This document shows, in pieces, positions 6,776 through 63,980 of a stretch of 64,000 nt of DNA. Made by a program: the position numbers and the translations under genes. The DNA lies in IMG/VR virus record IMGVR_UViG_3300008740_000001, positions 124,001-188,000 of that record. The stretch is one strand, 5' to 3'. The notes beneath the pieces were generated by a model. It was not told the origin of the DNA. It saw nothing but the letters and a program-made list of their open reading frames with translations, and ran no database searches. Every line of letters starts with the position of its first letter. Positions within the stretch are counted from its first letter, which is position 1. This DNA comes from a virus.

Positions 6776-9700
6776 ATGGCAGACGATCCAAAAACCAATG
6801 AAAAATTAACCAGAGCGATTGAGCAGCTTACTAAGCAGGTCGAGCGCAATACGGCTGGTTTTAATCGAGAGTTAAAAAAGTCGGGCCAACTCACTGAGAG
6901 TCTGGGGGATTCGTTTGAGGAAATCGCCAAGAGCCTCAAGAAGAAAAATGATATTCTAGAAAATACAATACTGTCGTTGACTAGAATAGGCGAAATTACT
7001 ACTGTGCAGGATCGTCGCGCCGCATATCGAGCCGAAGCCTTGCAGGCAGAATTGGACAGCATTAATAACCTTCTGGCAGCCGAAGAGAGCAAGCTTGAGG
7101 TAATGATCCAAGAAGGGACGATCTCAGAAGAGGCCCGCAAGAATTATGAGATTAAACTAGAAGCCCAGCGCGAGTCTGTACGGCTTCTTAAGGGTGAAGT
7201 TCAGCAAATGAATGCTGCAGCCAGTGCTGCAGATGATGTTGCTAAAGGTATGCTCGGCATCGCCGGCATTACCGACAAAATGCGCCTAGACGATAAGTTT
7301 GCTAATGCTGTCGGTGAAGCTGGAGGCTTAGTTCCGGTTTTGCAAGCCGTTGGGAAGCGCCTCATGGACAACACCACAAAGACCATGCTTCTTTCGTCGG
7401 CTTCTTCGCATGTTTCAGACGCAATCATGGGCCTCGCCATGGCAGCAATTAAACAAATGGTGTCTCTTGATAACCTCGAAGCGCAGATGCGCCGGATGAC
7501 TGGCGGCAACCACGAGTATTCTGAATCTATTAGAGAGGTATATTTGGCGAACCGGATCAACGGTGTTTCTGCTGAAGATGCAGCTAGCTCAGTTAATACG
7601 CTCTACACCGAAATGAGCACGTTCACACGATATAATAAGGCGACCCGTTCTGAATTAGCGAACACTGGTGCGCTCCTAGAAAGAATGGGTGTTAGCAATG
7701 AAGCGTTTGCAGGCGGCTTAGAGGTATCGACAAAGATGTTGGGCATGACAGCGATTGAATCTCGCGACACTCAGACCGATATTGCCAGATTTGCAACTGA
7801 ATTGGGCGTTGCTCCCGAAACAATGGCTGCTGGCTTCAAGAACGCCGGCCCAATTATGGCGAAATTCTCAATTAACGCCACTAAGGCCTTTAAGAACGTT
7901 GCCAAGGCAGCTAAGGCCACCGGTATCGAAATGGACCGGATCCTCGACTATACACAGCGATTTGACACCTTTGAGGGCGCCGCAGAGCAGGTTGGCTCTC
8001 TGAACGCAATGTTGGGTGGCGATTATATCAACGCTATGGACCTGATGGCCACAGAAGACCCTGCAGAGCGAATGAAAATGATTACAGACGCTATTCATGA
8101 TTCAGGCAAGGCTTTTGAGGAAATGAGCTATTATGAGAAGATCGCAATTGCGGAAGCTTCCGGGTTCCAAGATGTCGGAGAGCTAGCCAAGGCCATGTCT
8201 GGCGATATGGACACCCTAAACACGTCTACTGAAGAGCATGCTTTAACAGAAGAACAGTTGGCCGAAAATGCCAAAATTAATCAATCACTTCAGGAAAAGC
8301 TCGCAAACACAATGGCTGAACTGGCCCCTGCTATAATGGACGTGATGGATGGCCTTAACAAATTCATGGTTCCGATTATGAAGTTCGTCGCCATTGCTGG
8401 CCCGGTGCTGTTCCCAGCACTTTTGATGCTCAAGGGGCTAATGTGGGCAGTTCAGATTAAGACGGCCATGGCCACGGCTGCAACCGAATTCCGAATGATC
8501 GCTCAGCTTAAAGCATGGGCCGTTGACAAGCTAGAAACTGCTCAAATTTGGCTTATGATCAAAGCCGATGAAGCCAAAGCGGCTATAGATCGCATTCGGG
8601 CCGCCACCACCGGCGCTAGTACGGCTGCAACAGCGGCCAACACCGGAGCCCAGAATCTCAGCACAGCCGCTACCATTAGGGGTCGACTCGCCATAATCGG
8701 CCAGAACATTGCCCGGGGTGTAGCGGTCGCGGGTACAGCCGCATGGGCCGTCATTCAGGGAGTTTGGGCTATTGCCACCGGTGCAGGTACTGTTGCAACT
8801 CTTGGCGCCACCGTAGCAACGTGGGGATTGAATACTGCACTTATTACAGCGACCGGTGGTCTGATTTTGATTATTCCACTGATTATCGCCATTGCATACG
8901 GCTTGAAGAAAATGTGGGAACAGGGCGGCATTGCGAAGGGCATTGTTATCGCACTAGGAATCGCTGCTGGAGCCGCATTGGTTGCTGCTACTGGAGGTCT
9001 TATACTTCTGGTCCCACTGGTTATTGGATTATTCTTGGGTCTTAAGAAGGTATGGGATGGGCTTAAGGAAGGTGCGACATGGGCAAAGATTGTGGGCGGA
9101 ATATTACTTTACATTTTCGCAGCCCCCCTTGTTCCTCTTTTCTTGCTTTGGCAGTTCTGGGACAAGATTAAAGCCGGCTTCATTATTGGTGCGAAAGCGA
9201 TTTTCAACGCGCTAACATGGCCATTCCAAAAGGCCTATGATCTTGTAACTTCTATTTGGGATGGGATCACTGGATTCTTTACGTCAAAGATTGATACTAT
9301 CAAAGCTGTGTTTATGTCAATTGCATCGGTGGGCAAAACTATCGCAAACGTCTTTAAGTGGCCGTTCAACGCACTTATTGGAATTATCAACAAGTTTATC
9401 GGTTTTATTGAAGGTGTCTTTACTCTTAAGATTAGGGTGCCCAAGATTCTCCCGGGCCCTTCGAAGTTCCAGATTGGTCCTCCGAATATGGGAAGAATAC
9501 CCAAGTTGGCCAAGGGCACAGAAGCCTTTGCTGGCGGAATGGCCATGGTCGGTGAGAAGGGTCCAGAAATGGTAAACATGCCGGCCGGCACGAGCGTAAC
9601 GCCCGCTGAGAAGACCAAGAAATTTGTTGAGACGCTAGCACAAGTAGCGAACATGACTGCAAAGATCGCAGGCGCCATGGGGGTGCCCGGCGCTTCAGCG

Positions 9701-9862
9701 GTCGCGGGTGTAACAGAAAAGGTGACCAAAGCAGTCGGAGGTGGACAGCAAGAAAGTCCCCAGCCGGTTCAAGTAAATATTACTTTGGAACTAGATAAGA
9801 GAGTACTAGCAAGACACACAGAAGAGATTATGGTTGCCAAACTGAACCCGGCAAGCGCTTAA
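6776..9862 (+). CDS. Tail tape measure protein
   Basis: A 1028-residue protein that sets tail length and is extruded on DNA delivery. The N-terminal 150 residues are a coiled coil ('EQLTKQVERNTAGFNREL'). The middle is Ala/Gly-rich and helical. About residues 530-830 hold repeated long hydrophobic segments ('GLILIIPLIIAIAYGLKKMW', 'GGLILLVPLVIGLFLGLKK'), a usual tape-measure feature linked to membrane passage. The C-terminus has the common 'AFAGGMAMVGEKGPEMVNMP' motif of tape measures. Length and position between chaperone and baseplate genes agree. Confidence 0.9.
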   Translation: MADDPKTNEKLTRAIEQLTKQVERNTAGFNRELKKSGQLTESLGDSFEEIAKSLKKKNDILENTILSLTRIGEITTVQDRRAAYRAEALQAELDSINNLLAAEESKLEVMIQEGTISEEARKNYEIKLEAQRESVRLLKGEVQQMNAAASAADDVAKGMLGIAGITDKMRLDDKFANAVGEAGGLVPVLQAVGKRLMDNTTKTMLLSSASSHVSDAIMGLAMAAIKQMVSLDNLEAQMRRMTGGNHEYSESIREVYLANRINGVSAEDAASSVNTLYTEMSTFTRYNKATRSELANTGALLERMGVSNEAFAGGLEVSTKMLGMTAIESRDTQTDIARFATELGVAPETMAAGFKNAGPIMAKFSINATKAFKNVAKAAKATGIEMDRILDYTQRFDTFEGAAEQVGSLNAMLGGDYINAMDLMATEDPAERMKMITDAIHDSGKAFEEMSYYEKIAIAEASGFQDVGELAKAMSGDMDTLNTSTEEHALTEEQLAENAKINQSLQEKLANTMAELAPAIMDVMDGLNKFMVPIMKFVAIAGPVLFPALLMLKGLMWAVQIKTAMATAATEFRMIAQLKAWAVDKLETAQIWLMIKADEAKAAIDRIRAATTGASTAATAANTGAQNLSTAATIRGRLAIIGQNIARGVAVAGTAAWAVIQGVWAIATGAGTVATLGATVATWGLNTALITATGGLILIIPLIIAIAYGLKKMWEQGGIAKGIVIALGIAAGAALVAATGGLILLVPLVIGLFLGLKKVWDGLKEGATWAKIVGGILLYIFAAPLVPLFLLWQFWDKIKAGFIIGAKAIFNALTWPFQKAYDLVTSIWDGITGFFTSKIDTIKAVFMSIASVGKTIANVFKWPFNALIGIINKFIGFIEGVFTLKIRVPKILPGPSKFQIGPPNMGRIPKLAKGTEAFAGGMAMVGEKGPEMVNMPAGTSVTPAEKTKKFVETLAQVANMTAKIAGAMGVPGASAVAGVTEKVTKAVGGGQQESPQPVQVNITLELDKRVLARHTEEIMVAKLNPASA

Positions 9863-9875
9863 AGGAGGCAAGAAA

Positions 9876-10739
9876 ATGGGCTTTTTAGATGAATTAAATG
9901 ACTTGAACAGAGAGCGTACTTCGCTGTTTGATTCAAAATCAAAAGCAGGTCGAGATGCATCAGACACGTATGCTAACCTAAACCAGCTTTATATTGAATT
10001 TTATCATTTGCCTTCAGACAGAAGTGTTACGTTCAAGGCTTATATCACTGAATGGTCAGACAAATTTAGTTCCAACTATAACACCGAAAACGTGTATGGA
10101 AGAAACGACCCGATTCATACTTTTGAGGGAACATCGCGTGAAATCTCGCTTGCATGGGAATGCGCATCTTCCACTGCTCACGAAGCACAAGAAAATCTAG
10201 CCAGAGTGTCTTTGTTGGCGCAATTTTTGTACCCAGCATTTAAGATGCAGGAGTTTACTTTTGGCCCGGGCGCAGAAACCTTAAAAGTTGGAACAATGGC
10301 CAAAGCACCCTTAGTTAAGGTGCGTTTTGCGAACTTGATCTTGGACAGTAAGGGTGCCGCCGTCGACGCGGCAACGGGGATGTCTGATGTTAACGCAAAA
10401 ACGGGCGGTCTTCTGTGTGCTCTAGATGGCTTAAACATATCAACAGATCTGGAAGAAGGCGTAATTGACGCGACTGGCATTTCAACCCCTAAAACATTAA
10501 CACTGAGCACAACCCTGAAAGTCATTCACCAGCATACGCTAGGTTGGGATAATAGCAATAAAACATGGCTGGGTGAAGGAAATGCAGTTGCTTTCCCATA
10601 TAATGCTTGGGGAGCCGGCGCCGCTGAATTGTCGGGCATCGAAGATCGTTACGGCGTAGAAGAACCGGAGGATCCCGCTGCAGCACCATCTGATGAACTG
10701 CCAACTATGGACGCCTCGTCGCTGGAGCGGGTATCATGA
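9876..10739 (+). CDS. Baseplate / tail-tube initiator protein (gp48/gp54-type, tentative)
   Basis: A 287-residue protein with SD AAAGGAGG. It contains 'YIEFYHLPSDRSVTFKAYI' and 'IHTFEGTSREISLAWECASS', which read like a tube-like beta-barrel domain that docks on the tail tube, and a disordered Glu/Pro-rich C-terminus. It lies just after the tape measure and overlaps the LysM baseplate gene by 4 bases, where T4-like phages carry the tube-initiator proteins. The exact T4 counterpart cannot be set from sequence alone. Confidence 0.5.
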   Translation: MGFLDELNDLNRERTSLFDSKSKAGRDASDTYANLNQLYIEFYHLPSDRSVTFKAYITEWSDKFSSNYNTENVYGRNDPIHTFEGTSREISLAWECASSTAHEAQENLARVSLLAQFLYPAFKMQEFTFGPGAETLKVGTMAKAPLVKVRFANLILDSKGAAVDAATGMSDVNAKTGGLLCALDGLNISTDLEEGVIDATGISTPKTLTLSTTLKVIHQHTLGWDNSNKTWLGEGNAVAFPYNAWGAGAAELSGIEDRYGVEEPEDPAAAPSDELPTMDASSLERVS

Positions 10740-11086
10740 GTAGATATTTTGGTAGACGAAGAAAAACAACGAAAGAGAAGATGCACAAAGAGCTTCTTGA
10801 TAAGCGCGGCGTCAAGCATATTAAGCATTATACGACACCCGTCCTCTCTCACCCAACGGTTGAGGAAAGAAGCAAGTACACGCAAGAACTACATGTTTGG
10901 TCAGTGGGAGATCGCTATTATAAGCTAGCCCACAAGCATTACGGAGATTCTAAATATTGGTGGGTCATAGCCCACTGGAACCTTAAGCCCACTGAGGGAC
11001 ACTTAAACTTGGGTGATGCAGTTCGAATCCCCGGCCCGATTAATGTGGTATTAAATATCCTTAAGAGGAACGGCGGTGGTTATTAA
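10736..11086 (+). CDS. LysM-containing baseplate protein (gp53 / tail protein X-like)
   Basis: A 116-residue protein with a basic N-terminus (1-35) and a LysM-type domain at about 50-105: 'HVWSVGDRYYKLAHKHYG' then 'YWWVIAHWN' and 'LNLGDAVRIPGP'. Such domains occur in T4 gp53 and P2 gpX, which link baseplate hub and wedge. ATGA overlap with the preceding gene and one-base overlap with the next place it in a tight baseplate operon. Confidence 0.75.
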   Translation: MSRYFGRRRKTTKEKMHKELLDKRGVKHIKHYTTPVLSHPTVEERSKYTQELHVWSVGDRYYKLAHKHYGDSKYWWVIAHWNLKPTEGHLNLGDAVRIPGPINVVLNILKRNGGGY

Positions 11087-14000
11087 TGTCGCGGGGTTAT
11101 ACAGCGAAAGTACCAGCGAACTGGAGTTCCGACGTACTCGATCTTGTCAATAGTTTTGAGATCGAAGGCGCAACTATCTATTTTGATGATGCGAATAAAT
11201 TCTCGGCAGAAGACTTAGATATTATCTCTGGAGAGGCCATCGTCAAGAGTTTGTCTTATGACAGAGACTTTTCAGGCGAAGGCGATATGCCCGATGGACT
11301 ATACGAATATAAGGGCGAATCACAACGCCTAGGATCTGTGTTCAAAGATCTCGCCGGATGTATTGACGGCACTCAGAATTACTGCCTGTCGTATGAAGAT
11401 TTCGACGATATCGACAAAGATTATCTTTCTGACTGGATCGTCGATAATGTTTCCTCTGGAGATGATGCTTTACCTTTATCAAACGTCAAATCTGGAGATG
11501 ATATCTTTAAAAACACTTGGGGGAATGACCCCGACTATAAGATGTCCGAAAGATATAGCTGGTCTAAGACGCGCTGTGGAAGTATTACCTCTAGTGGCCG
11601 CGCCAGCGCAATGTCATCTAATACTGCCAAACTTCCGATGACATCCGGCGGTGTACAAGGCTCTTCCACCGCCCCCTCTATGCGTGAATATTCGGATCAG
11701 CTATTCGCAGATTCTCGATTCCTCTCACAGCGCATGCAATACATTTCGAAGGCCGTTACCGCATATGAAGAATTAGAGGATCTTGACGATGAAGCCGTAG
11801 AGGAGGGTATGGACCGCCTCGCGGAGTTGCAGGAGAAGGAAGAAGACGGCGATCTCACCCCCGAAGAAGCGGAAGAACTGGCGCGACTCCAAGGCGCGAT
11901 GACGCCATCCAACTTGAGCGATAGAGCTGATCAGCAGGCCGCAGTGGCCGCATTGGAAGAAAGTGGAGAGGCCGGCTCATATGCTGCAGCTATGCGAGCT
12001 ATGGAACAGTGTTTTATGATAAAGGATATTGTGACGATGGCTCAGGCGAACGTTCAAAGGAGTAGGGAAGGAAAAACTCAGTATCGTGTCGCAGACGGGC
12101 CGGCAGCACACATGGTACACGGAGAGATGGGCCAAACAGTTTCAAAATTAATGTTCGACCCGGCCTATTCTGCTTATTATTTTATGCCACCGAGCAAGTT
12201 GTCGTACTTGACCCCTTCAATAAAACTGTATCAAGTTTTGCATGAGGCAAACGCATCCGGGCCATCGCCCGAGACATCAGACTTGAATCCGCCGGTAGAC
12301 TTCCAAATACCATTCTTTCAACACATGACCCAGTATTCGATAGATCAGATCATGAACGGAGAAGAGGGTCGCGGCGGCATCATCGGCTTAAAGAGTTTTG
12401 ATTGGGTCTATCAGGGCTCAAATCCGGCTTCCTCTAGAAGAGATATTAAGGCGACCTTGATATTGGAGTGTCAATCGTTTGGGGAATTGGTTAGGGAAAG
12501 GACCGTAACCCTCCAAGGGCCAAACGGCGAGTTTACTCATCATTGGACCTATGCTGATTTGGCAATTCGAAGAAACCGCGACCACAGACAGGCACCCGAT
12601 GTGATATATCAGCAAACAAAAGTGGTAGTTGGTTGGGGTTTGGACGACGCGTCTGAAGAAATTAACACTCTTGGGTTTACAGAAGACGAGATCCGGGCAG
12701 TTAAGAACTCTCAAATGACAATGTTTTTGACATTAATTGATCACGGGTTTGATATCAGAGAGGATGGCACAGTAGAGATGAAAATTGAATATCGGGCCTA
12801 CATCGAAGGGGCGTTTACTTCACCGGAAGCCAATGTGTTGATTACAGATGATTTGTTAGAAAAACAGGCCGAACGAAAACGCTTGTTAGGTGAGATGCAG
12901 GCAGATATTAATGATCCGAACGGAAGATGTAGAACTGCAGATTTGCAGGAGTTAAAAAGAAGGTTTACTAATCAGATACATGAAGAGAAGGAGCAAGCAC
13001 ATCTTTCTCTCTTGAAGGGTCTAGAAGACGAAAATAGCATCTTTATTCGGACTATTGATATTGTAGAAATGATGCAATTTATGCAAAATCCTTTCGCGGG
13101 CTCTTCCGGGGCTAACGCTCAAACAGGAGCCAGCGGCAACCCTTCTGTTTCGGGGAACTCATCAGCCGACCAACTTAGGACAGCGGATGGAGTTGTCGCA
13201 GATTTGGAGTCTAAATTTAATTTTCCAGATCAAGCAGCCCACGGCAGTGCCGAAAGCCAAAGCACAAATGAGTTGTTGGAAAACGTATATACAGAAGAGG
13301 TCGACGGCGAATTTCAGGTACCTTACTTTTTCCTAGGAGATCTAATTCACGTTGCGCTTAAGAATATTTCCAAATCAGACACGGCGGATCCAAAGAAATT
13401 TAAAAATATGCGTTTATTGTTAGGGGCCCTCGAAATTAATGATTTTGAAAACTCAGATGTTAAGTATCAGATTAATATAGCGGACGTGCCCATTGCGGTT
13501 ACATATTTTTTGGAATGGTTCATGAACAGAATTCAAAAAAAGCAAGAAGTTGTTTGGTACCTTATGGACTTCATCAAAGATGTCATCAAAAATATGATTT
13601 ACAAAGTGCTTAATTCAGATGAGTGCTTCGCCGGCGCCGTAAGGCAAAAAGCCAACTTTCAGAACATCTATCTCGTGGGCAAAGGCAACGGTGGCGTTGA
13701 TAAGATACAGGAACTAATTGATACGCCCGCAGGCGCCGATACTGGCCTATATAAGCGTTTGTTCGTAGATGATGTGTCTAGCGACCAGTCGCCTATTTTA
13801 GAAGTTGACAAGTCGGACGAACAGATCGACGCCGCCGACATGTTTCACTACGTGCTCTTATACGCAGCAGATCCTACCCCGAGAAACCTGAATGGAAATT
13901 TCAGCGAAGATGTGGAAAAGGGTGTATATCATTTTCATATTGGTACCAACAAGGGTCTTGTCAAAAGGATCAAGTTTACTAAGACGGATCAGCCCGGCTT

Positions 14001-18928: not shown

Positions 18929-19004
<76 letters not shown>

Positions 19005-19311: not shown

Positions 19312-20439
19312 ATGCTTAGAATGGCGAAAAGAAAGAAGAGTGGCGCCGGCAAGATGTCTATTGCCGATATGCGTTCAATTATCAACAAAAAGGCTGGAAT
19401 GGAAGTCGCCCACAGCCTAGCCGGTGAGAATCCAACCGAAGTAAAAGATTGGATTCCCACCGGTTCTCGTTGGCTGGATTCAATTATTGCCCGGGGCAAA
19501 CGAGCCGGGATCCCCGTAGGCAAGGTCACGGAGATCGCAGGTCTCGAAGCTTCTGGCAAGTCTTTCTTGGCTGCACAAGTTGCCGCCAACGCGCAGAAGA
19601 TGGGCATCGACGTAATCTATTTTGATTCTGAGTCTGCCATCGACCCAATGTTTTTGACACGGGCAGGGTGTGATATTAATGATCTTCTATATGTTCAAGC
19701 CTCTTCTGTTGAGTTTGTTCTGGAGACTATCGAAGATTTGCTGGCCAATAATGAGAACAGGATGCTTTTCATCTGGGACTCTCTAGCACTGACGCCGGCT
19801 ATATCGGACGTTGAAGGCGACTTTAACCCACAATCTTCTATGGCTATGAAGGCGCGCATTCTCGCCAAGGGCATGAGTAAACTAACAGTTCCGATTGCCA
19901 ACTCGCAGTCGACGTTTTTGGTCCTGAATCAGCTTAAGTCTAATATTACGCGCTCACCATCTGAAGCCCTTGTTACGCCTTATATGACACCGGGCGGCAA
20001 GGCTATGATTTACGCCTATTCGCTTCGGATTTGGCTAACTCGCCGGAAGGCAAAAGCCAGCTTTATTACAGACGACAAGGGGTTCCGCATCGGTTCAGAA
20101 GTAAAGGTAAAGTTGGAGAAATCACGCTTTGGAACACAGGGCCGTCAGTGCAACTTCAAAATTTTGTGGGGCACGGAAGATGTTGGTGTGCAAGACCGGG
20201 AATCATGGTTTGAAGCCATCAAGGGATCAGAACATATCAAGCAGGCCGGCGCATGGTTTACACTAATGTACGCTGACGGCACCGAAGAACGTTTTCAGGC
20301 GTCAAAGTGGGCGAAAAAGCTAGAAAATGAGAAGTTCCTTGCTAGGGTAGAAGAGCTTATGGATATCGAAGTTGTGAGAAAATTCGATGCACGCGAAGGC
20401 ACTGCCGAAGAATTTTACGGGGAAAAAGAAGAAAATTAA
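19312..20439 (+). CDS. uvsX: UvsX/RecA-like recombinase
   Basis: A 375-residue RecA-family strand-exchange protein. Walker A 'GLEASGKS' is at residues 77-84. 'VIYFDSESAID' and the Walker B-type 'RMLFIWDSLALTP' follow, then the loop region 'NITRSPSEALVTPYMTPGG'. In T4-like phages it forms presynaptic filaments with gp32 and starts recombination-dependent replication. A second in-frame ATG (19321, 'MAKRKKSG') is an equally possible start, since AGGAA lies 10 bases before it. No promoter is visible in the 3-base gap to the exported-protein gene, so it is probably co-transcribed. Confidence 0.93.
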   Translation: MLRMAKRKKSGAGKMSIADMRSIINKKAGMEVAHSLAGENPTEVKDWIPTGSRWLDSIIARGKRAGIPVGKVTEIAGLEASGKSFLAAQVAANAQKMGIDVIYFDSESAIDPMFLTRAGCDINDLLYVQASSVEFVLETIEDLLANNENRMLFIWDSLALTPAISDVEGDFNPQSSMAMKARILAKGMSKLTVPIANSQSTFLVLNQLKSNITRSPSEALVTPYMTPGGKAMIYAYSLRIWLTRRKAKASFITDDKGFRIGSEVKVKLEKSRFGTQGRQCNFKILWGTEDVGVQDRESWFEAIKGSEHIKQAGAWFTLMYADGTEERFQASKWAKKLENEKFLARVEELMDIEVVRKFDAREGTAEEFYGEKEEN

Positions 20440-57678: not shown

Positions 57679-58006
57679 ATTTACAGTAGATGATAGACTC
57701 CTGACAATACAATTCTTGGGCGTACTACACACATGGCTGCAAGAGACGAAAGCAGAAAAAGAAAGAGAATTGGAACTATTGCAGTTGCAAGAGGGAATAG
57801 TAAAGATCATGTTCGCAAGAATTTCAAGGCCGGAGGATTTCCACACCGAAGAAGTCATTGAGGCCGGCGAGAAAGTATTCTCAGAGAACTGGGAAGAAAT
57901 GCTAGAGCAAGAAATAAAGAAGCTGAATGAATCAGAGCCTCTCCCCGAAACCGAGAGGGACAACATTATTGATTTTTCAGCATGGAAAAAAAAGGATGAG
58001 GACTGA
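57668..58006 (+). CDS. Uncharacterised helical protein
   Basis: 112 residues from ATG 57668, overlapping the preceding KVGDLV gene by 11 bases. Mostly helical and strongly charged ('ETKAEKERELELLQLQEGIV'), with 'FHTEEVIEAGEKVFSENWEE' and a basic end. No recognised motif; possibly a regulatory or adaptor protein of the cluster. Confidence 0.55.
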   Translation: MSDEFTVDDRLLTIQFLGVLHTWLQETKAEKERELELLQLQEGIVKIMFARISRPEDFHTEEVIEAGEKVFSENWEEMLEQEIKKLNESEPLPETERDNIIDFSAWKKKDED

Positions 58007-58239
58007 TGACAATTAGAATAGGCGACTTGGTAGAGCACTGTGAATATCCGGGCTACCGAGGTATAGTGAGAGAGGTTCTCGCAACACGCGGGAATGGCAA
58101 GGCTCGTACCATAAAGGTTAGTTGGTTCCCTCCCCTGTCTGATGCATCTCCTAAGCAACGCTGGCAAACAATGCACGTTGAAGGCACAACAAGCGTGTCG
58201 GTGTTGGATGTAAGGCAGATTTCAGCCTTGGGCACTTAA
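58006..58239 (+). CDS. KVGDLV-family small protein
   Basis: A 77-residue protein: 'IRIGDLVEHCEYPGYRGIV' then 'KARTIKVSWFPPLSDAS' and 'QTMHVEGTTSVSVLDVRQIS'. It has the conserved turn, strand and W. Starts one base before the end of the previous stop. Confidence 0.65.
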   Translation: MTIRIGDLVEHCEYPGYRGIVREVLATRGNGKARTIKVSWFPPLSDASPKQRWQTMHVEGTTSVSVLDVRQISALGT

Positions 58240-58523
58240 TGATGGCTGGCATCGTCGGCGCCCTAGTACAACTTAAGAACTGGCAATCGTCAAAAGACGG
58301 GAAGTCTCAAAGTGGGATAATCCTCTCAAAGCCTTTGCCTGCATCGCGGTTGTATCATCATGACTTTCTGGATGGTTATCGTCCAGATTGGGATCGATTT
58401 GGGTTCATGGAGCCGCACCACCCGGCCAACACTATGGATAACATGGTGCTTGTTTATTGGCCAAGCAATTCAACTGAGCGTTGGCACTTGATGAAAGATT
58501 TAGAATTTTTAAGTATGCCGTGA
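58239..58523 (+). CDS. KVGDLV-related small protein
   Basis: A 94-residue protein that lacks the exact K-V-G-D-L-V but has 'IVGALVQLKNWQSSKDGKSQ', 'SGIILSKPLPASR' and 'MVLVYWPSNSTERWHLMKDL', i.e. the same order of strands and the conserved W. Starts in the stop of the preceding gene. Confidence 0.55.
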   Translation: MMAGIVGALVQLKNWQSSKDGKSQSGIILSKPLPASRLYHHDFLDGYRPDWDRFGFMEPHHPANTMDNMVLVYWPSNSTERWHLMKDLEFLSMP

Positions 58524-58533
58524 TAGTTACTAT

Positions 58534-58830
58534 GTGGGTGACTGTGAGACTATCAAGCCAAAGAAGGGCGATTTAGTAAGGTGGATTTATGATTATGCTT
58601 TGTATGCAGCTGACGACAAAGGCAACGCTTGGCCTCACGATCCACAATATGAATACGGCGTGATCATGGAAGTTTCACACTCAGACCCACATGCCATAAT
58701 AGTTTTTAGTACAACGACTAAGATGTGGCATGTTGCTCATATGGTTGACGACGACATCGAAATCATCAGCGAGTCCAGAAACAAGGTGGTGATTCCCACC
58801 GCCGAGGAGATCAAGAAGTATGAAAAGTAA
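58534..58830 (+). CDS. KVGDLV-family small protein
   Basis: A 98-residue protein with GTG start. 'KPKKGDLVRWIYDYAL' (8-23) then 'YEYGVIMEVSHSDPHAIIVF' and 'IEIISESRNKVVIPTAEEIK'. The I-S-E-S-R near the C-terminus is the same motif that closes the proteins at 63417 and 63604. Confidence 0.65.
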   Translation: MGDCETIKPKKGDLVRWIYDYALYAADDKGNAWPHDPQYEYGVIMEVSHSDPHAIIVFSTTTKMWHVAHMVDDDIEIISESRNKVVIPTAEEIKKYEK

Positions 58831-58915
58831 ACTTTTCGACGAGATCAGGGGCGAGAATGAGTTAAAAACTTTGCGCCAAAATTTTCCTCTTTGGCAGACA
58901 GGTAGGTTGACATGA
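58820..58915 (+). CDS. Very short open frame bridging two KVGDLV genes
   Basis: ATG 58820 overlaps the end of the preceding gene and its TGA overlaps the next ATG (58912). It encodes 31 residues ('MKSKLFDEIRGENELKTLRQ' onward), helical and charged. Its overlaps fit the translational coupling seen throughout the cluster, but its small size leaves real doubt that it is a gene. Confidence 0.35.
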   Translation: MKSKLFDEIRGENELKTLRQNFPLWQTGRLT

Positions 58916-59130
58916 ACGCACAGGCGGGTTATAATAATGGTATGAATTGGGATAGAATCATAGAAGTGGGTGATTTGGTGAAGGTTGTGCCAAGCAGTTA
59001 TACGCTTAGGGATGAAATACTTACAGGCATCGTGATAAAAAAGATGAAAACCTGCGGGTTTTTTATCGTTTATCATAATGGTATTTATCACCAAAACGTC
59101 CACCTTGAAGAAATGGAGAAGTATCCTTAA
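58912..59130 (+). CDS. KVGDLV-family small protein
   Basis: A 72-residue protein; 'IIEVGDLVKVVPSSYTLRDE' then 'LTGIVIKKMKTCGFFIVYHN'. It has a 20-residue N-terminal extension before the turn. The following gene begins on the last base of its stop. Confidence 0.62.
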   Translation: MNAQAGYNNGMNWDRIIEVGDLVKVVPSSYTLRDEILTGIVIKKMKTCGFFIVYHNGIYHQNVHLEEMEKYP

Positions 59131-59315
59131 TGTGGGAAGAAGTGTTTTACAAAGTAAAGTATCTAGACAAGAGCACAAACGCTTCTATGCAGGCACTCAT
59201 AAGTGCACCACCATCAAAAACTATTGAGAGAGTACGCGAAATATTATCAGAAGTATATCCTCGATGGGAAATCGAGAGCATTACGGTGACTCTATATACG
59301 CCGATAGACAAGTAA
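59130..59315 (+). CDS. Uncharacterised small protein
   Basis: A 61-residue protein: 'EEVFYKVKYLDKSTNASMQA' then a helix 'SKTIERVREILSEVYPRWEI' and a final strand. A beta-alpha-beta arrangement, not recognised; within the KVGDLV cluster but not a member. Confidence 0.5.
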   Translation: MWEEVFYKVKYLDKSTNASMQALISAPPSKTIERVREILSEVYPRWEIESITVTLYTPIDK

Positions 59316-59342
59316 AATCGTTCCCGCGCCTCTACTTAGTGC

Positions 59343-59660
59343 GTGGGCGATTCAAACATAAAAAAGGGCGTGCTTGTGCGCCCTGTGGTATTTTTTAGTC
59401 AATGGCTGGGAGTAGTGTTGACCGACCCTGTGCAGTATGTGCCAACCGATAATGAACTGGAAATGGCCGGTTACGCGCCAACTCAAGAGTTTTATTGGGA
59501 AGGGGTCGAAGTTGTCAACGTATATTGGTTTACTGAGGGGATGGCCTCCGAAGAATTTATAGACTTTCTGGAGGTAGTGTCGCCACCTGTTGACCACCTC
59601 GATGACCCCGATTTTGCTGAAAAAATGTTCAATTTTTACTGGACAGACGACGATGATTAG
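59343..59660 (+). CDS. KVGDLV-related small protein
   Basis: A 105-residue protein with GTG start. 'IKKGVLVRPVVFFSQWLGVV' carries the turn as K-K-G-V-L-V-R, then 'VEVVNVYWFTEG' and an acidic end ('FYWTDDDD'). The last part overlaps a promoter for the next gene. Confidence 0.55.
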   Translation: MGDSNIKKGVLVRPVVFFSQWLGVVLTDPVQYVPTDNELEMAGYAPTQEFYWEGVEVVNVYWFTEGMASEEFIDFLEVVSPPVDHLDDPDFAEKMFNFYWTDDDD

Positions 59661-59668
59661 GTTATAAT
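59640..59668 (+). promoter_or_regulatory. Sigma70-type promoter for hydrolase gene
   Basis: TGGACA (59640-59645), 17-base spacer, TATAAT (59663-59668). SD TAGGAGA and GTG start at 59694 follow. Confidence 0.75.
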
Positions 59669-59693
59669 ATACTATGTAATCTAGGAGAGCTTT

Positions 59694-60182
59694 GTGAAAA
59701 TTGTTTTTTTGCATGGACTGGAATCAAGTCCCAACTCGGCAAAGGTAAAATTTCTGCGCGAACAAGGTCACGAGGTGCTGGCACCCCGTCTTGATCGAAA
59801 CGATTGGGAACAGTCTGTTATGGCGGCTCGTGATGCTATCACTGCTTTCCAACCCGATGTGGTCGTTGGCTCGTCTAGGGGCGGTGCTGTTGCTATGGTC
59901 GCAAGAGTCTCACCCATTCCAACAATCCTAATCGCACCTGCATGGAAGAAATACGCGCCTTGGGCCACCATCAGCGGGAGCACAGTGATTCTTCATTCTT
60001 CACAAGACTGGATTGTGCCCTTTGCAGACTCGGAAGAACTCGCCCGTACTTTCGGTGCTAAACTTTATGACGTTGGCGAGGACCATCGCATGAACGACCC
60101 AGAGGCACTTAGTGCCTTGGCTGTGGGCCTTGATTGGCAGGGACATGGCTGGTTTAGTAAAAATCTTCAAGATAACACTTGA
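59694..60182 (+). CDS. Alpha/beta hydrolase (YqiA/UPF0227-like esterase)
   Basis: A 162-residue small alpha/beta hydrolase. 'KIVFLHGLESSPNSAKVKFL' is the oxyanion start, Ser61 lies in 'VVGSSRGGAV' (nucleophile elbow G-S-S-R-G), Asp105 in 'HSSQDWIVPF' and His131 in 'EDHRMND'. It could hydrolyse esters in host metabolites or remove modifications. An unusual enzyme in a phage. The next promoter's -35 box lies at its 3' end. Confidence 0.82.
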   Translation: MKIVFLHGLESSPNSAKVKFLREQGHEVLAPRLDRNDWEQSVMAARDAITAFQPDVVVGSSRGGAVAMVARVSPIPTILIAPAWKKYAPWATISGSTVILHSSQDWIVPFADSEELARTFGAKLYDVGEDHRMNDPEALSALAVGLDWQGHGWFSKNLQDNT

Positions 60183-60207
60183 CATTTGAATCTATCTGAT
60201 ATATATT
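60179..60207 (+). promoter_or_regulatory. Sigma70-type promoter
   Basis: TTGACA (60179-60184), 17-base spacer, TATATT (60202-60207). The expected transcript start (about 60214) is within 2 bases of the first GTG (60216), suggesting a nearly leaderless message. Confidence 0.75.
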
Positions 60208-60215
60208 ATAGGTGA

Positions 60216-60482
60216 GTGACAAAAGATATGTCTGACCAACTGATAAATCACGCTAGCGGATCGATGCCGCAGCTTACCCTTTTTGAGAGTGCCCAACTAG
60301 GACTAATGGCCTTCGTCGGAGGGCTAGCGATGGATGCCCAACTCGATGCCATTATCCCGACTATCCGCGAATCAGAGCGTTTGAAGTTGGATGGCACTGT
60401 AACCCAACATGAAGTAGCTTTGCTAGACGCCTTTATTGCACAGGCGCTGCGCGATCTGCCTCCCGTTGCAGAGGATGTATAA
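60216..60482 (+). CDS. Uncharacterised small protein
   Basis: An 88-residue protein; start could be GTG 60216 (fits the promoter) or ATG 60228 ('MSDQLINHASGSMPQLTLFE', SD-like AGGTGAG upstream). Hydrophobic in the middle ('LGLMAFVGGLAMDAQLDAII') and helical. No motif recognised. Overlaps the next gene start by 1 base. Confidence 0.5.
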   Translation: MTKDMSDQLINHASGSMPQLTLFESAQLGLMAFVGGLAMDAQLDAIIPTIRESERLKLDGTVTQHEVALLDAFIAQALRDLPPVAEDV

Positions 60483-60757
60483 TGAAAACCGTTATTGTCG
60501 TTGACACTGACGATCCAAAGGGGATGGAGAGTACCCGGCGTATTGTGGACAACCTGTTGACCACCTATCATCACCGCAGTATTGAAGCCGGTGATCCATT
60601 CTCTGGCAAGATCCAGTTCATCAAGCACTTGCGAGCATATGTAAAGTTCTGTGAGGAAAACTGGCCCGATGACTGGCAAAATCAGATCGGCAACCTTAAG
60701 ACCTCGAAGGGATACGCGGATACCCTCAAACTTTTCCAACGTGCAGGTAACCTGTGA
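60482..60757 (+). CDS. Uncharacterised small protein
   Basis: A 91-residue protein that starts with a Rossmann-like strand 'KTVIVVDTDDPKGMESTRRI' and continues with helices. No clear nucleotide-binding loop. Within the KVGDLV cluster but not a member. Confidence 0.5.
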   Translation: MKTVIVVDTDDPKGMESTRRIVDNLLTTYHHRSIEAGDPFSGKIQFIKHLRAYVKFCEENWPDDWQNQIGNLKTSKGYADTLKLFQRAGNL

Positions 60758-60975
60758 GTCAGAGCCAGCACTACTATAATCCGCAAGTGGGCGATTTGGT
60801 GCGAATCATCGAGGGTACACACGATCCGAGCATGCCCGAAGATCGTATTGGTCTGATCGTGGAGATTCTGCAACAGGAACCGGGAGACGCCCCGCGCAGT
60901 CACGATACTTTTATGGTCAAGTTTGGCACCCGTACCTTGAAGTTCCACAAGATGTGGCTTGAAAAAGTCTCTTGA
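60754..60975 (+). CDS. KVGDLV-family small protein
   Basis: A 73-residue protein with GTG start. 'QVGDLVRIIEGTHDPSMPED' then 'RIGLIVEILQQEPG', 'FMVKFGTRTLKFH' and 'MWLEKVS'. Four-base overlap with the preceding gene. Confidence 0.68.
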   Translation: MSQSQHYYNPQVGDLVRIIEGTHDPSMPEDRIGLIVEILQQEPGDAPRSHDTFMVKFGTRTLKFHKMWLEKVS

Positions 60976-60997
60976 CATCTTTTTGACAAAAAACCCC

Positions 60998-61026
60998 TTG
61001 CACCTCGCGCTAGCCTGTGCTATATT
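60998..61026 (+). promoter_or_regulatory. Sigma70-type promoter
   Basis: TTGCAC (60998-61003), 17-base spacer, TATATT (61021-61026), with two further TTGACA-like boxes just upstream (60972, 60983). SD CGGAGAG precedes ATG 61052. Confidence 0.72.
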
Positions 61027-61051
61027 ATATACATGATTTACGGAGAGTGTC

Positions 61052-61384
61052 ATGTCTGATTTTTATGTGAGCCGAATCGACGTTCGGGCTGGTGATCCTA
61101 CTGCTGGCGAGCCCGCTGTTGTTGCAGAGGAGGTCGTCCTGACCCTCAAAGCGCCATATCATGCTGCGGAGCGTAGTTACCAAAAGTTCCGCGCTTTGGG
61201 CATTGAGAACATTGGGCTGTACGAGTATTCTTTGAACAAAAAGTCTTACGCGGCTAGCCTCAAAGCGCAGAAGCGCAGGAAGTTCAAGAAGATCACGCTG
61301 GCTGACGTGGCAAAGGATTTGCAAGAGTTTATGGAGGAAGGCAAGCCCGATGCCGATCAAGAAACACACACTGAAAAGGGGTGA
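61052..61384 (+). CDS. Uncharacterised small protein
   Basis: A 110-residue protein: strand-rich start ('FYVSRIDVRAGDPTAGEPAV'), 'EEVVLTLKAPYHAAERSYQK' and a Lys-rich helix ('SLKAQKRRKFKKITLADVAK'). No recognised motif; basic middle may bind nucleic acid. The next KVGDLV gene begins inside its 3' end. Confidence 0.52.
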   Translation: MSDFYVSRIDVRAGDPTAGEPAVVAEEVVLTLKAPYHAAERSYQKFRALGIENIGLYEYSLNKKSYAASLKAQKRRKFKKITLADVAKDLQEFMEEGKPDADQETHTEKG

Positions 61385-61574
61385 TCTTGTTCGGCTTCGC
61401 ACAGGCTGGCCCGAACATTGGCGTTATGGAATCGTGTTGCGAGTGAACAACCACAACCCTGAATGGCCACACTGTGATATACACTTTTTTCAAACACCAA
61501 CATCAGAATCAAAACAATCTAACATCAATCAATATCTAACTGGACTGGAGAAGATAAATGAGCAACACATTTGA
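61350..61574 (+). CDS. KVGDLV-family small protein
   Basis: A 74-residue protein: 'LKRGDLVRLRTGWPEHWRYG' then 'IVLRVNNHNPEWPHCDIHFF'. The turn reads K-R-G-D-L-V-R. Overlaps the genes on either side (34 and 17 bases). Confidence 0.65.
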   Translation: MPIKKHTLKRGDLVRLRTGWPEHWRYGIVLRVNNHNPEWPHCDIHFFQTPTSESKQSNINQYLTGLEKINEQHI

Positions 61575-62400: not shown

Positions 62401-62485
62401 GGCGCGGTGGTGGAATCGGTATACACAGCAGACTTAAAATCTGCCGCTTTTTAGCTTGCGGGTTCGAGTCCCGCCCGCGCTACCA
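62401..62485 (+). tRNA. tRNA-Leu(UAA)
   Basis: An 85-base class II tRNA with encoded CCA. The anticodon stem GCAGA/TCTGC holds loop CTTAAAA (anticodon UAA, reading UUA), the long variable arm is CGCTTTTTAGCTTGCG, the T loop is TTCGAGT, and the acceptor pairs GGCGCGG with CCGCGCT. It would supply UUA codons that are rare in GC-rich hosts. Confidence 0.92.
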
Positions 62486-62865: not shown

Positions 62866-62894
62866 TTGACGCCACACCTCTCGCATGTTATATT
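62866..62894 (+). promoter_or_regulatory. Sigma70-type promoter, leaderless downstream gene
   Basis: TTGACG (62866-62871), 17-base spacer, TATATT (62889-62894). The expected start of transcription is at the ATG (62901), and no SD is present. Two more TTGACA boxes lie upstream (62840, 62851). Confidence 0.72.
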
Positions 62895-62900
62895 ATATAC

Positions 62901-63071
62901 ATGAAACGAAGAAAGACAAAGGCACCGAAGTCGCGCAACTGGCTTGCGGTACATGCACGAATGGACTTGGCCACTGGTGGCGAGCGCAAAGGCGCTGGAC
63001 CGCACGGAGGCCGGAAGCAGCGTTATAGCCGCAAGGTAAAGCACAAGGGGCGTACTAATGAAAGTCGGTGA
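62901..63071 (+). CDS. Small basic protein ending in the ESR overlap
   Basis: A 56-residue strongly basic protein ('MKRRKTKAPKSRNWLAVHAR', then 'GGRKQRYSRKVKHKGRTNES'). Its last codons, GAA AGT CGG TGA, overlap the start of the next gene by 14 bases, the same overlap seen between later members. It is probably the first translated gene of the last cassette set, from a promoter giving a leaderless message. Confidence 0.58.
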   Translation: MKRRKTKAPKSRNWLAVHARMDLATGGERKGAGPHGGRKQRYSRKVKHKGRTNESR

Positions 63072-63219
63072 TCTGATCATGTCGAAAGACGGATACCATA
63101 CTGCGCTAGTGGTGAGTATTGTCGGAGCCGCTGCTTTCAACCGCATCAAAGTGCTGGTTGTTGGCAGCGACACGCCCGAAATGTGCGATCCGAGAATGTG
63201 GGAGGTTATAAGTGGATAG
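63058..63219 (+). CDS. KVGDLV-family small protein (cassette 1)
   Basis: A 53-residue protein starting at ATG 63058: 'MKVGDLIMSKDGYHTALVVS' then 'AAFNRIKVLVVGSDTPEM' and the closing 'WEVISG'. Starts within the last 14 bases of the previous gene. In line with the family: turn, strand, V-x-V strand, W-E-V-I-S end. Confidence 0.7.
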   Translation: MKVGDLIMSKDGYHTALVVSIVGAAAFNRIKVLVVGSDTPEMCDPRMWEVISG

Positions 63220-63340
63220 CCTGCCTCAAACTCCCTTGGTGGCTTTTCTTTACATCTTTGCCTTCATAGGTCTTGGCATATTGATTAGTCAGGCCAGTCA
63301 TATTTTATACGACATTTGGGAAGATTGGAGGAAGAAGTGA
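63212..63340 (+). CDS. Small membrane protein
   Basis: A 42-residue protein from a GTG start overlapping the previous stop: one membrane helix ('VAFLYIFAFIGLGILISQAS') and a charged end ('DIWEDWRKK'). Too short to classify; nested between cassettes. Confidence 0.5.
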   Translation: MDSLPQTPLVAFLYIFAFIGLGILISQASHILYDIWEDWRKK

Positions 63341-63420
63341 GAAGTATATTGGTAACTATTGGAATCGTGGTAACGATTTTCGTGCTTTCGTTTGCTATTA
63401 CATTGGCGCTAACAGCATGA
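63337..63420 (+). CDS. Very small membrane peptide
   Basis: A 27-residue peptide from GTG 63337 ('MRSILVTIGIVVTIFVLSFA' onward), a single membrane helix. It overlaps the previous gene's stop and the next ATG. It could be a leader or a genuine small membrane protein. Confidence 0.4.
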   Translation: MRSILVTIGIVVTIFVLSFAITLALTA

Positions 63421-63617
63421 AAGTCGGTGATTTGGTGCGCCCAACAGACAGAAACCTTCTATCGGGAAGCCGACGAGTTGGCATTGTTGTGCATGTGGAT
63501 ACCGGATGGGATAACAAACAAGTAAGAGTAAAGTGGGACATCCCCTCGTGGATGGACGATGAGGGTTTGGCGTCTGAATCTCCCGAGAACCTAGAGGTGA
63601 TCAGTGAAAGTCGGTGA
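63417..63617 (+). CDS. KVGDLV-family small protein (cassette 2)
   Basis: A 66-residue protein: 'MKVGDLVRPTDRNLLSGSRR' then 'VGIVVHVDTGWDNKQVRVKW' and 'SPENLEVISESR'. The final codons overlap the next start by 14 bases. It is the clearest example of the family. Confidence 0.75.
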   Translation: MKVGDLVRPTDRNLLSGSRRVGIVVHVDTGWDNKQVRVKWDIPSWMDDEGLASESPENLEVISESR

Positions 63618-63765
63618 CTTGGTTCGACATTGGTTGACAGAACAACTCGGTATTATCCTCGATGTTGGGTTTCACAATATCAGGGTTCAGTGGCTAGATG
63701 AGATCGTCTTTGGTGTTGAAGAACTTGATCCTCGCAACGTGGAGGTGGTCAGTGAAGCCCGGTGA
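63604..63765 (+). CDS. KVGDLV-family small protein (cassette 3)
   Basis: A 53-residue protein from GTG 63604: 'MKVGDLVRHWLTEQLGIILD' then 'HNIRVQWLDEIVFG' and 'PRNVEVVSEAR'. It overlaps cassettes 2 and 4 by 14 bases at each end. Confidence 0.74.
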   Translation: MKVGDLVRHWLTEQLGIILDVGFHNIRVQWLDEIVFGVEELDPRNVEVVSEAR

Positions 63766-63940
63766 TCTGGTAAGGCATTCCGAGCCTGTGGACCGGGCTG
63801 AGTTTGATGCTGTTGGTGTTGTTGTTGAGATTCAAGAAGATTGGATGAAGAACTGGTCAAAAGTAAAAGTAATGTGGACCGGCCTTCAGGTTCCAGTATG
63901 GGAACCAATCCGCTGCGTCAAACTCTTTACATCCTCTTGA
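63752..63940 (+). CDS. KVGDLV-family small protein (cassette 4)
   Basis: A 62-residue protein from GTG 63752: 'MKPGDLVRHSEPVDRAEFDA' then 'VGVVVEIQEDWMKNWSKVKV' and an end without the ESR motif. It is the last member in the window and ends just before the next promoter. Confidence 0.72.
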   Translation: MKPGDLVRHSEPVDRAEFDAVGVVVEIQEDWMKNWSKVKVMWTGLQVPVWEPIRCVKLFTSS

Positions 63941-63951
63941 CAAGATTCTTG

Positions 63952-63980
63952 TTGACAGCCACAAACCCTTGTGCTATAAT
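63952..63980 (+). promoter_or_regulatory. Consensus sigma70 promoter at window end
   Basis: TTGACA (63952-63957), 17-base spacer, TATAAT (63975-63980), a perfect consensus, followed by CGGAGA. It drives a gene beyond the window. Additional TTGACA occurs at 63937. Confidence 0.85.

Follow-up and report, generated by a model that had tools for sequence, protein, structure and literature searches.

The window, by which the whole 64,000-nt stretch of DNA under analysis is meant, corresponds to positions 124001-188000 of IMGVR_UViG_3300008740_000001, a record of 203,859 bp labelled G000. This record encodes a contractile-tail sheath, a UvsX-like recombinase, a DnaB helicase, a ribonucleotide reductase and a DNA polymerase. 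Close to the right end of the window lies an operon of small overlapping genes (cassettes), with a tRNA-Leu (TAA anticodon, 62401-62485) directly 5' of it; a tRNA-Met was located at 18929-19004. Distant GDLV-type small genes, all without the 14-mer described below, were found within 58006-61574 (at 58006, 58534, 58912, 60754 and 61350) and are probably diverged relatives of the cassettes. The features are as follows (window coordinates).

19312..20439, + strand, UvsX-like recombinase, candidate enzyme for cassette recombination (phrog_97, E 1.9e-56)
62866..62894, + strand, putative sigma-70-like promoter (TTGACG-17-TATATT; 10/12 consensus positions, extended TG), 5' of the first-cassette operon
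62901..63071, + strand, small basic protein MKRRKTKAPK...KHKGRTNESR, a non-family upstream partner with its last codons inside the first 14-mer
63058..63071, + strand, 14-mer ATGAAAGTCGGTGA, upstream tail N-E-S-R-stop and downstream start M-K-V-G-D
63058..63219, + strand, cassette gene 1, 53 aa, MKVGDLI...MWEVISG
63212..63340, + strand, small hydrophobic ORF, 42 aa, overlapping cassette 1 by 8 nt
63337..63420, + strand, small hydrophobic ORF, 27 aa from GTG, with a 4-nt overlap at each end (a longer form of the ORF is listed)
63417..63430, + strand, fourth copy of the 14-mer, ATGAAAGTCGGTGA; the upstream gene closes by ATGA (4-nt overlap)
63417..63617, + strand, cassette gene 2, 66 aa (AlphaFold2 model: five-stranded barrel, mean pLDDT 84)
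63594..63603, + strand, GAGGTGATCA, E-V-I-S codons of cassette 2 forming a Shine-Dalgarno-like site for cassette 3
63604..63617, + strand, 14-mer GTGAAAGTCGGTGA
63604..63765, + strand, cassette gene 3, 53 aa
63741..63751, + strand, GGAGGTGGTCA, E-V-V-S tail codons of cassette 3 forming a Shine-Dalgarno-like site for cassette 4
63752..63765, + strand, 14-mer GTGAAGCCCGGTGA
63752..63940, + strand, cassette gene 4, 62 aa, MKPGDLVR..., closing the operon; its tail has no Shine-Dalgarno-like site
63952..63980, + strand, putative promoter of the next operon, perfect sigma-70 consensus

The original prediction had described three junctions at which a 14-mer is read as the tail of one gene and the head of the next. 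All three (63058, 63604 and 63752) were present with both frames reading as described; the count was incomplete, the copy at 63417-63430 having been overlooked. At that copy the upstream small ORF shares just 4 nt (ATGA) with the next gene. The 14-mer is therefore a feature of how the downstream gene begins, and whichever frame runs into it supplies the upstream tail. Dual coding thus arises from the downstream start sequence together with the frame of the upstream gene. The array extends beyond the window edge. Eleven family starts with a 14-nt overlap were found in G000 (record coordinates 187058, 187604, 187752, 189410, 189594, 190740, 190924, 191141, 192480, 192682 and 192845), and the promoter-proximal genes that open arrays in this record (190357 and 192314) are without the 14-mer, one example being ATGAAGGTCGGAGAT with GGA.

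A pattern for the joint matched 109 stretches in IMG/VR. As the first set of loci was picked by this pattern and was hence biased, two joint-independent scans were added, and 2,084 unique family proteins of mean length 65 were gathered over all scans, 1,763 of them recovered by a profile seeded with one window cassette. The family consensus (MKVGDLV...GIV...V.W...LEVISESR) is conserved at both ends and highly variable in the middle. The AlphaFold2 model of cassette 2 listed above has five strands in a predicted barrel, and the top matches when Foldseek was run against the PDB were Tudor/SH3-like, for example the C-terminal domain of PcrA/UvrD (at E 0.1 despite a probability of 1.00). The best PDB profile match was the NusG KOW region (E 0.0022). 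Pfam matches were weak and scattered (UBE2O SH3-C in 3/60), and no confident match to the family was obtained from Pfam or PHROG. The cassette proteins are accordingly described here as predicted SH3-like barrels; fast turnover and fold together suggest that they are perhaps small host-binding modules, and we infer that they take part in the phage-host conflict.

Among named phages, the longest matches to the joint consensus were 19 nt, in Salmonella phages, and tblastn of one family protein gave no match. The joint pattern detected only two MAG contigs in GTDB, L123 (WOR-3) and L122 (Acidiferrobacteraceae), which may be phage sequence assigned to bacterial bins or else a hint of the host. A search of the available literature for the peptide motifs of the family returned nothing relevant.

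The joint has a consensus of about 30 nt, TGGAGGTNATCA followed by RTGAAAGTCGGTGATTTGGT. TGA occurs in each of the two other frames of RTGAAAGTCGGTGA, at nt 2-4 and nt 12-14, so nearly any upstream gene is stopped there. Both TGA triplets were present in 59% of 2,048 unique family starts and in 4% of 1,522 control ORF starts. TGGAGGTNATCA precedes RTG in 757 unique joints, and the upstream tail codons read L-E-V-I-S. The Glu codon is GAG in 355/362 tails (98%), compared with 45% in gene bodies, a preference that makes GGAGGTGATC a Shine-Dalgarno match about 6 nt from the start. These Shine-Dalgarno codons are what suggests the coupled translation that the overlap had been proposed to enforce. 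The E-S-R tail is the other-frame reading of the next start, since genes without such a downstream cassette end otherwise.

Codon choice at the start was followed in a joint-independent set of 187 unique ATG starts encoding MKVGDLV, 68 of them with a 14-nt and 63 with a 4-nt overlap. GTT as the Val codon 3, which would place Trp in the upstream tail, was seen in 0/68 starts at 14-nt overlaps and in 30/119 other starts (p 4e-7). Starts without the 14-nt overlap were relaxed (Gly GGC/GGA/GGG about 45%, Val GTT 25%), with GGT and GTC favoured even there. Joints were homogenised within genomes to a significant yet small degree (mismatches per 32 nt, 6.99 versus 7.65; z -8.7); this could reflect genome-specific codon use and is given no main weight here. 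Codon bias was ruled out as the sole cause of the overlap because of the relaxation at starts that lack it. Chance origin of the 14-mers was ruled out by the excess of double TGA and by the 452 unique 14-nt junctions of the first (pattern-selected) set.

The frequency of the overlap was determined in a joint-independent sample of 80 loci chosen through a neighboring MoxR gene, 76 of which carried three or more family genes. Of roughly 440 close head-to-tail junctions, 347 overlapped by 14 nt and 45 by 4 nt, the latter being a common alternative to the 14-nt joint. Fusion of two domains in frame was seen in a single case across the loci. Relatives of the MoxR protein are encoded in 252 IMG/VR stretches, and the contigs kept reach about 205 kb; in L005 the array is followed by a MoxR-like AAA+ ATPase (8705-9778) and a protein with a VWA-like region (10006-11301).

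Upstream ORFs ending in a 14-nt overlap numbered 447 in the MoxR sample and G000 combined. The family profile was matched by 393 of these, and 48 had neither that match nor a GD motif. Two non-family partners recurred, a zinc-finger-like protein (CxC...KCKH) and the small basic protein encoded at 62901-63071 in the window; in some relatives both end through the overlap, with tails of the (N/D)(E/A)(S/N)R type, and in other relatives they have independent stops or overlap by 4 nt. The overlap had been said to look like an acceptor site from its unrelated first partner, and this is borne out by the 48 non-family ORFs and by relatives of the two partners, whose ends lie at other places where a cassette overlap is missing. 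The small zinc-finger-like protein (CTCPGFGWRRKCKH) is frequent upstream of cassettes in MoxR loci, e.g. L269_13633 and L246_5857.

Cassette number at the 14-mer was compared among related contigs and was found to vary. Within arrays, 93% of 336 homology-block ends fell no more than 30 nt from a cassette start, where 31% were expected (binomial p about 1e-126; this and the other statistics given here are computed ignoring relatedness), although a conserved joint alone would sharpen block ends even with breakpoints slightly outside it. Clean indels were scored between relatives with flanks at least 90% identical. Both breakpoints lay in the joint in 13 array indels of 145 to 1352 bp, comprising 1 to 8 whole cassettes and sharing junction footprints of 19-42 nt, all in register; these events stem from few contig pairs, with some contigs recurring, and not all are independent. 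In two or three further array indels (L118/L180, L236/L301) a breakpoint was within a gene body.

Between L016 and L018 a 176-bp deletion removed one cassette between two identical 20-mers ATGAAAGTCGGTGATTTGGT, converting a 4-nt overlap to a 14-nt overlap and leaving both genes intact. The products in L037/L082, L246/L276 and L078/L249 were chimeric, with the left part of one joint and the right part of the other, the crossover falling within the joint. Cassette order was permuted in L027/L082 and L037/L067. In contigs L296, L298, L300 and L303 the MoxR genes are 99.3-100% identical and kilobases of sequence are shared at 97.5-99.8%; beyond a joint the cassettes are completely different, except that L296 and L303 have theirs in common. 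Indels of whole cassettes that break at the junction on both sides, permuted order and content switches beside near-identical flanks thus support the earlier proposal that cassettes are gained and lost by recombination at the overlap while both ends stay readable.

A 561-bp indel between L050 and L288 was bounded by two early-promoter-like repeats (CTTGACATTC...TTGACAACTT...GGTATAAT; 57 nt, 48 identical). Recombination may thus also occur at repeated promoters, as at the PeSLs considered below.

The model we consider well supported is that of tandem SH3-like cassettes with a standard, doubly coding joint, in which recombination between joints changes the cassettes. In this model the joint encodes LEVIS, the final strand of the upstream protein, and MKVGDLV, the first strand of the next, and it supplies the Shine-Dalgarno site and start codon of the next gene and the stop of the upstream one. 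Homologous recombination between near-identical joints would then add, delete and reorder whole cassettes. Since a near-identical joint lies on every cassette, such exchange would preserve the start, ribosome site and stop of each gene. The aligned contigs show that whole cassettes are gained and lost at the joint. Homologous recombination is proposed because the products are chimeric, and it is probably run by the UvsX system of the phage. More tentatively, and with somewhat less than even confidence, the arrays may mark a large environmental phage clade with a dedicated, integrase-free exchange platform built on the doubly coding stop/start joint, the phage's own recombinase reshuffling a diverse set of small host-interaction genes within and between genomes.

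The overlap might instead serve translation alone, with breakpoints arising by random illegitimate recombination and selection retaining the in-register products. We regard this as improbable. In its favor, the Shine-Dalgarno codon bias in tails is strong, the mosaic joints of phages generally lie at gene borders, and functional selection would also purge products with broken genes. Against it, 13/13 junction events were in register with their 19-42-nt footprints, and several chimeras crossed over inside the joint. The joints flanking indel events were also 77% identical (ungapped), compared with 61% in control pairs for which a slightly different window was used; from this level of identity, perfect homology would not be required for every event.

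Assembly is a further concern, as the relatives are metagenome contigs throughout, short repeats can produce misassembly, and repeats lie exactly at the breakpoints. That the variation is an artefact of assembly over 20-40-nt repeats is nevertheless very unlikely. Assembly k-mers and reads normally resolve repeats of this length. L239 and L240, from separate samples, have the same order in 24/24 cassettes, and the extra cassette of L300 (relative to L298) has a relative elsewhere, in L294, and a body that is no copy of its neighbors. Least credible of all is pure ancestry with codon bias, namely one duplicated gene with a chance overlap of its ends and a 14-mer kept because MKVGD is kept, for although the cassettes are a single family of common origin with GGT and GTC already favoured outside the overlap, codons relax without the 14-nt overlap, GAG predominates in the tails, cassettes differ in number and order at the joint, and non-family upstream genes bear the same tail.

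The recombining joint was compared with known systems. Integrons, like the array here, line up exchangeable cassettes of one gene each that have the same kind of boundary. The boundary in the present case is itself coding sequence, and the crossovers resemble ordinary homologous recombination; chimeric crossovers need no integrase, and neither an integrase nor an attC-like structured site is proposed here. Promoter early stem-loops (PeSLs) of T4-type phages are mobile regulatory cassettes, credited to Arbiol et al. 2010 and Comeau et al. 2014 in PMC4503421. They resemble the joint in being short repeats between small early phage genes, with modules shuffled between relatives, and differ in being a noncoding promoter and stem-loop between genes, whereas the joint lies within two overlapping coding sequences and consists of Shine-Dalgarno site, stop and start. 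An early promoter with a stem-loop in an intergenic repeat is not what was found in the arrays: the joint is coding, and the promoter-like sites in the region of the window precede whole operons.

In cluster K mycobacteriophages, the start-associated sequences (SAS/ESAS) include a 13-nt repeat (GGGATAGGAGCCC) located just 5' of many starts of unrelated genes, proposed as a translation signal and possible target of homologous recombination (PMC3203893). TGGAGGTNATCA is likewise a conserved repeat immediately 5' of many starts, with the difference that the joint is also coding. SAS precede starts in many gene families, recombination at them was a suggestion, and two-frame coding is absent from the description (PMC3203893). 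Cyanophage ORFanage regions such as that of S-PM2 are like the array in their many small unknown genes, gain and loss, and poor synteny, and unlike it in that the available sections of the source (PMC4503421) mention neither a common gene family nor a repeated joint. According to those sections, the loss there was one large deletion attributed to mispackaging. That small phage genes recombine at short repeats lying between them is known from PeSLs and was suggested for SAS. What appears to be new is a doubly coding joint between cassettes, with stop, ribosome site and start, in long arrays of one family; as the carriers are uncultured, the system may so far have escaped notice.

Phage genomes are mosaic, and their joints are seldom visible. 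Here the joint is explicit and repeated hundreds of times, and it solves the reading-frame problem: a cassette can sit behind nearly any gene with both still readable. The joint is also a natural design for linker-free chaining of genes. The turnover of small genes in phages becomes directly testable.
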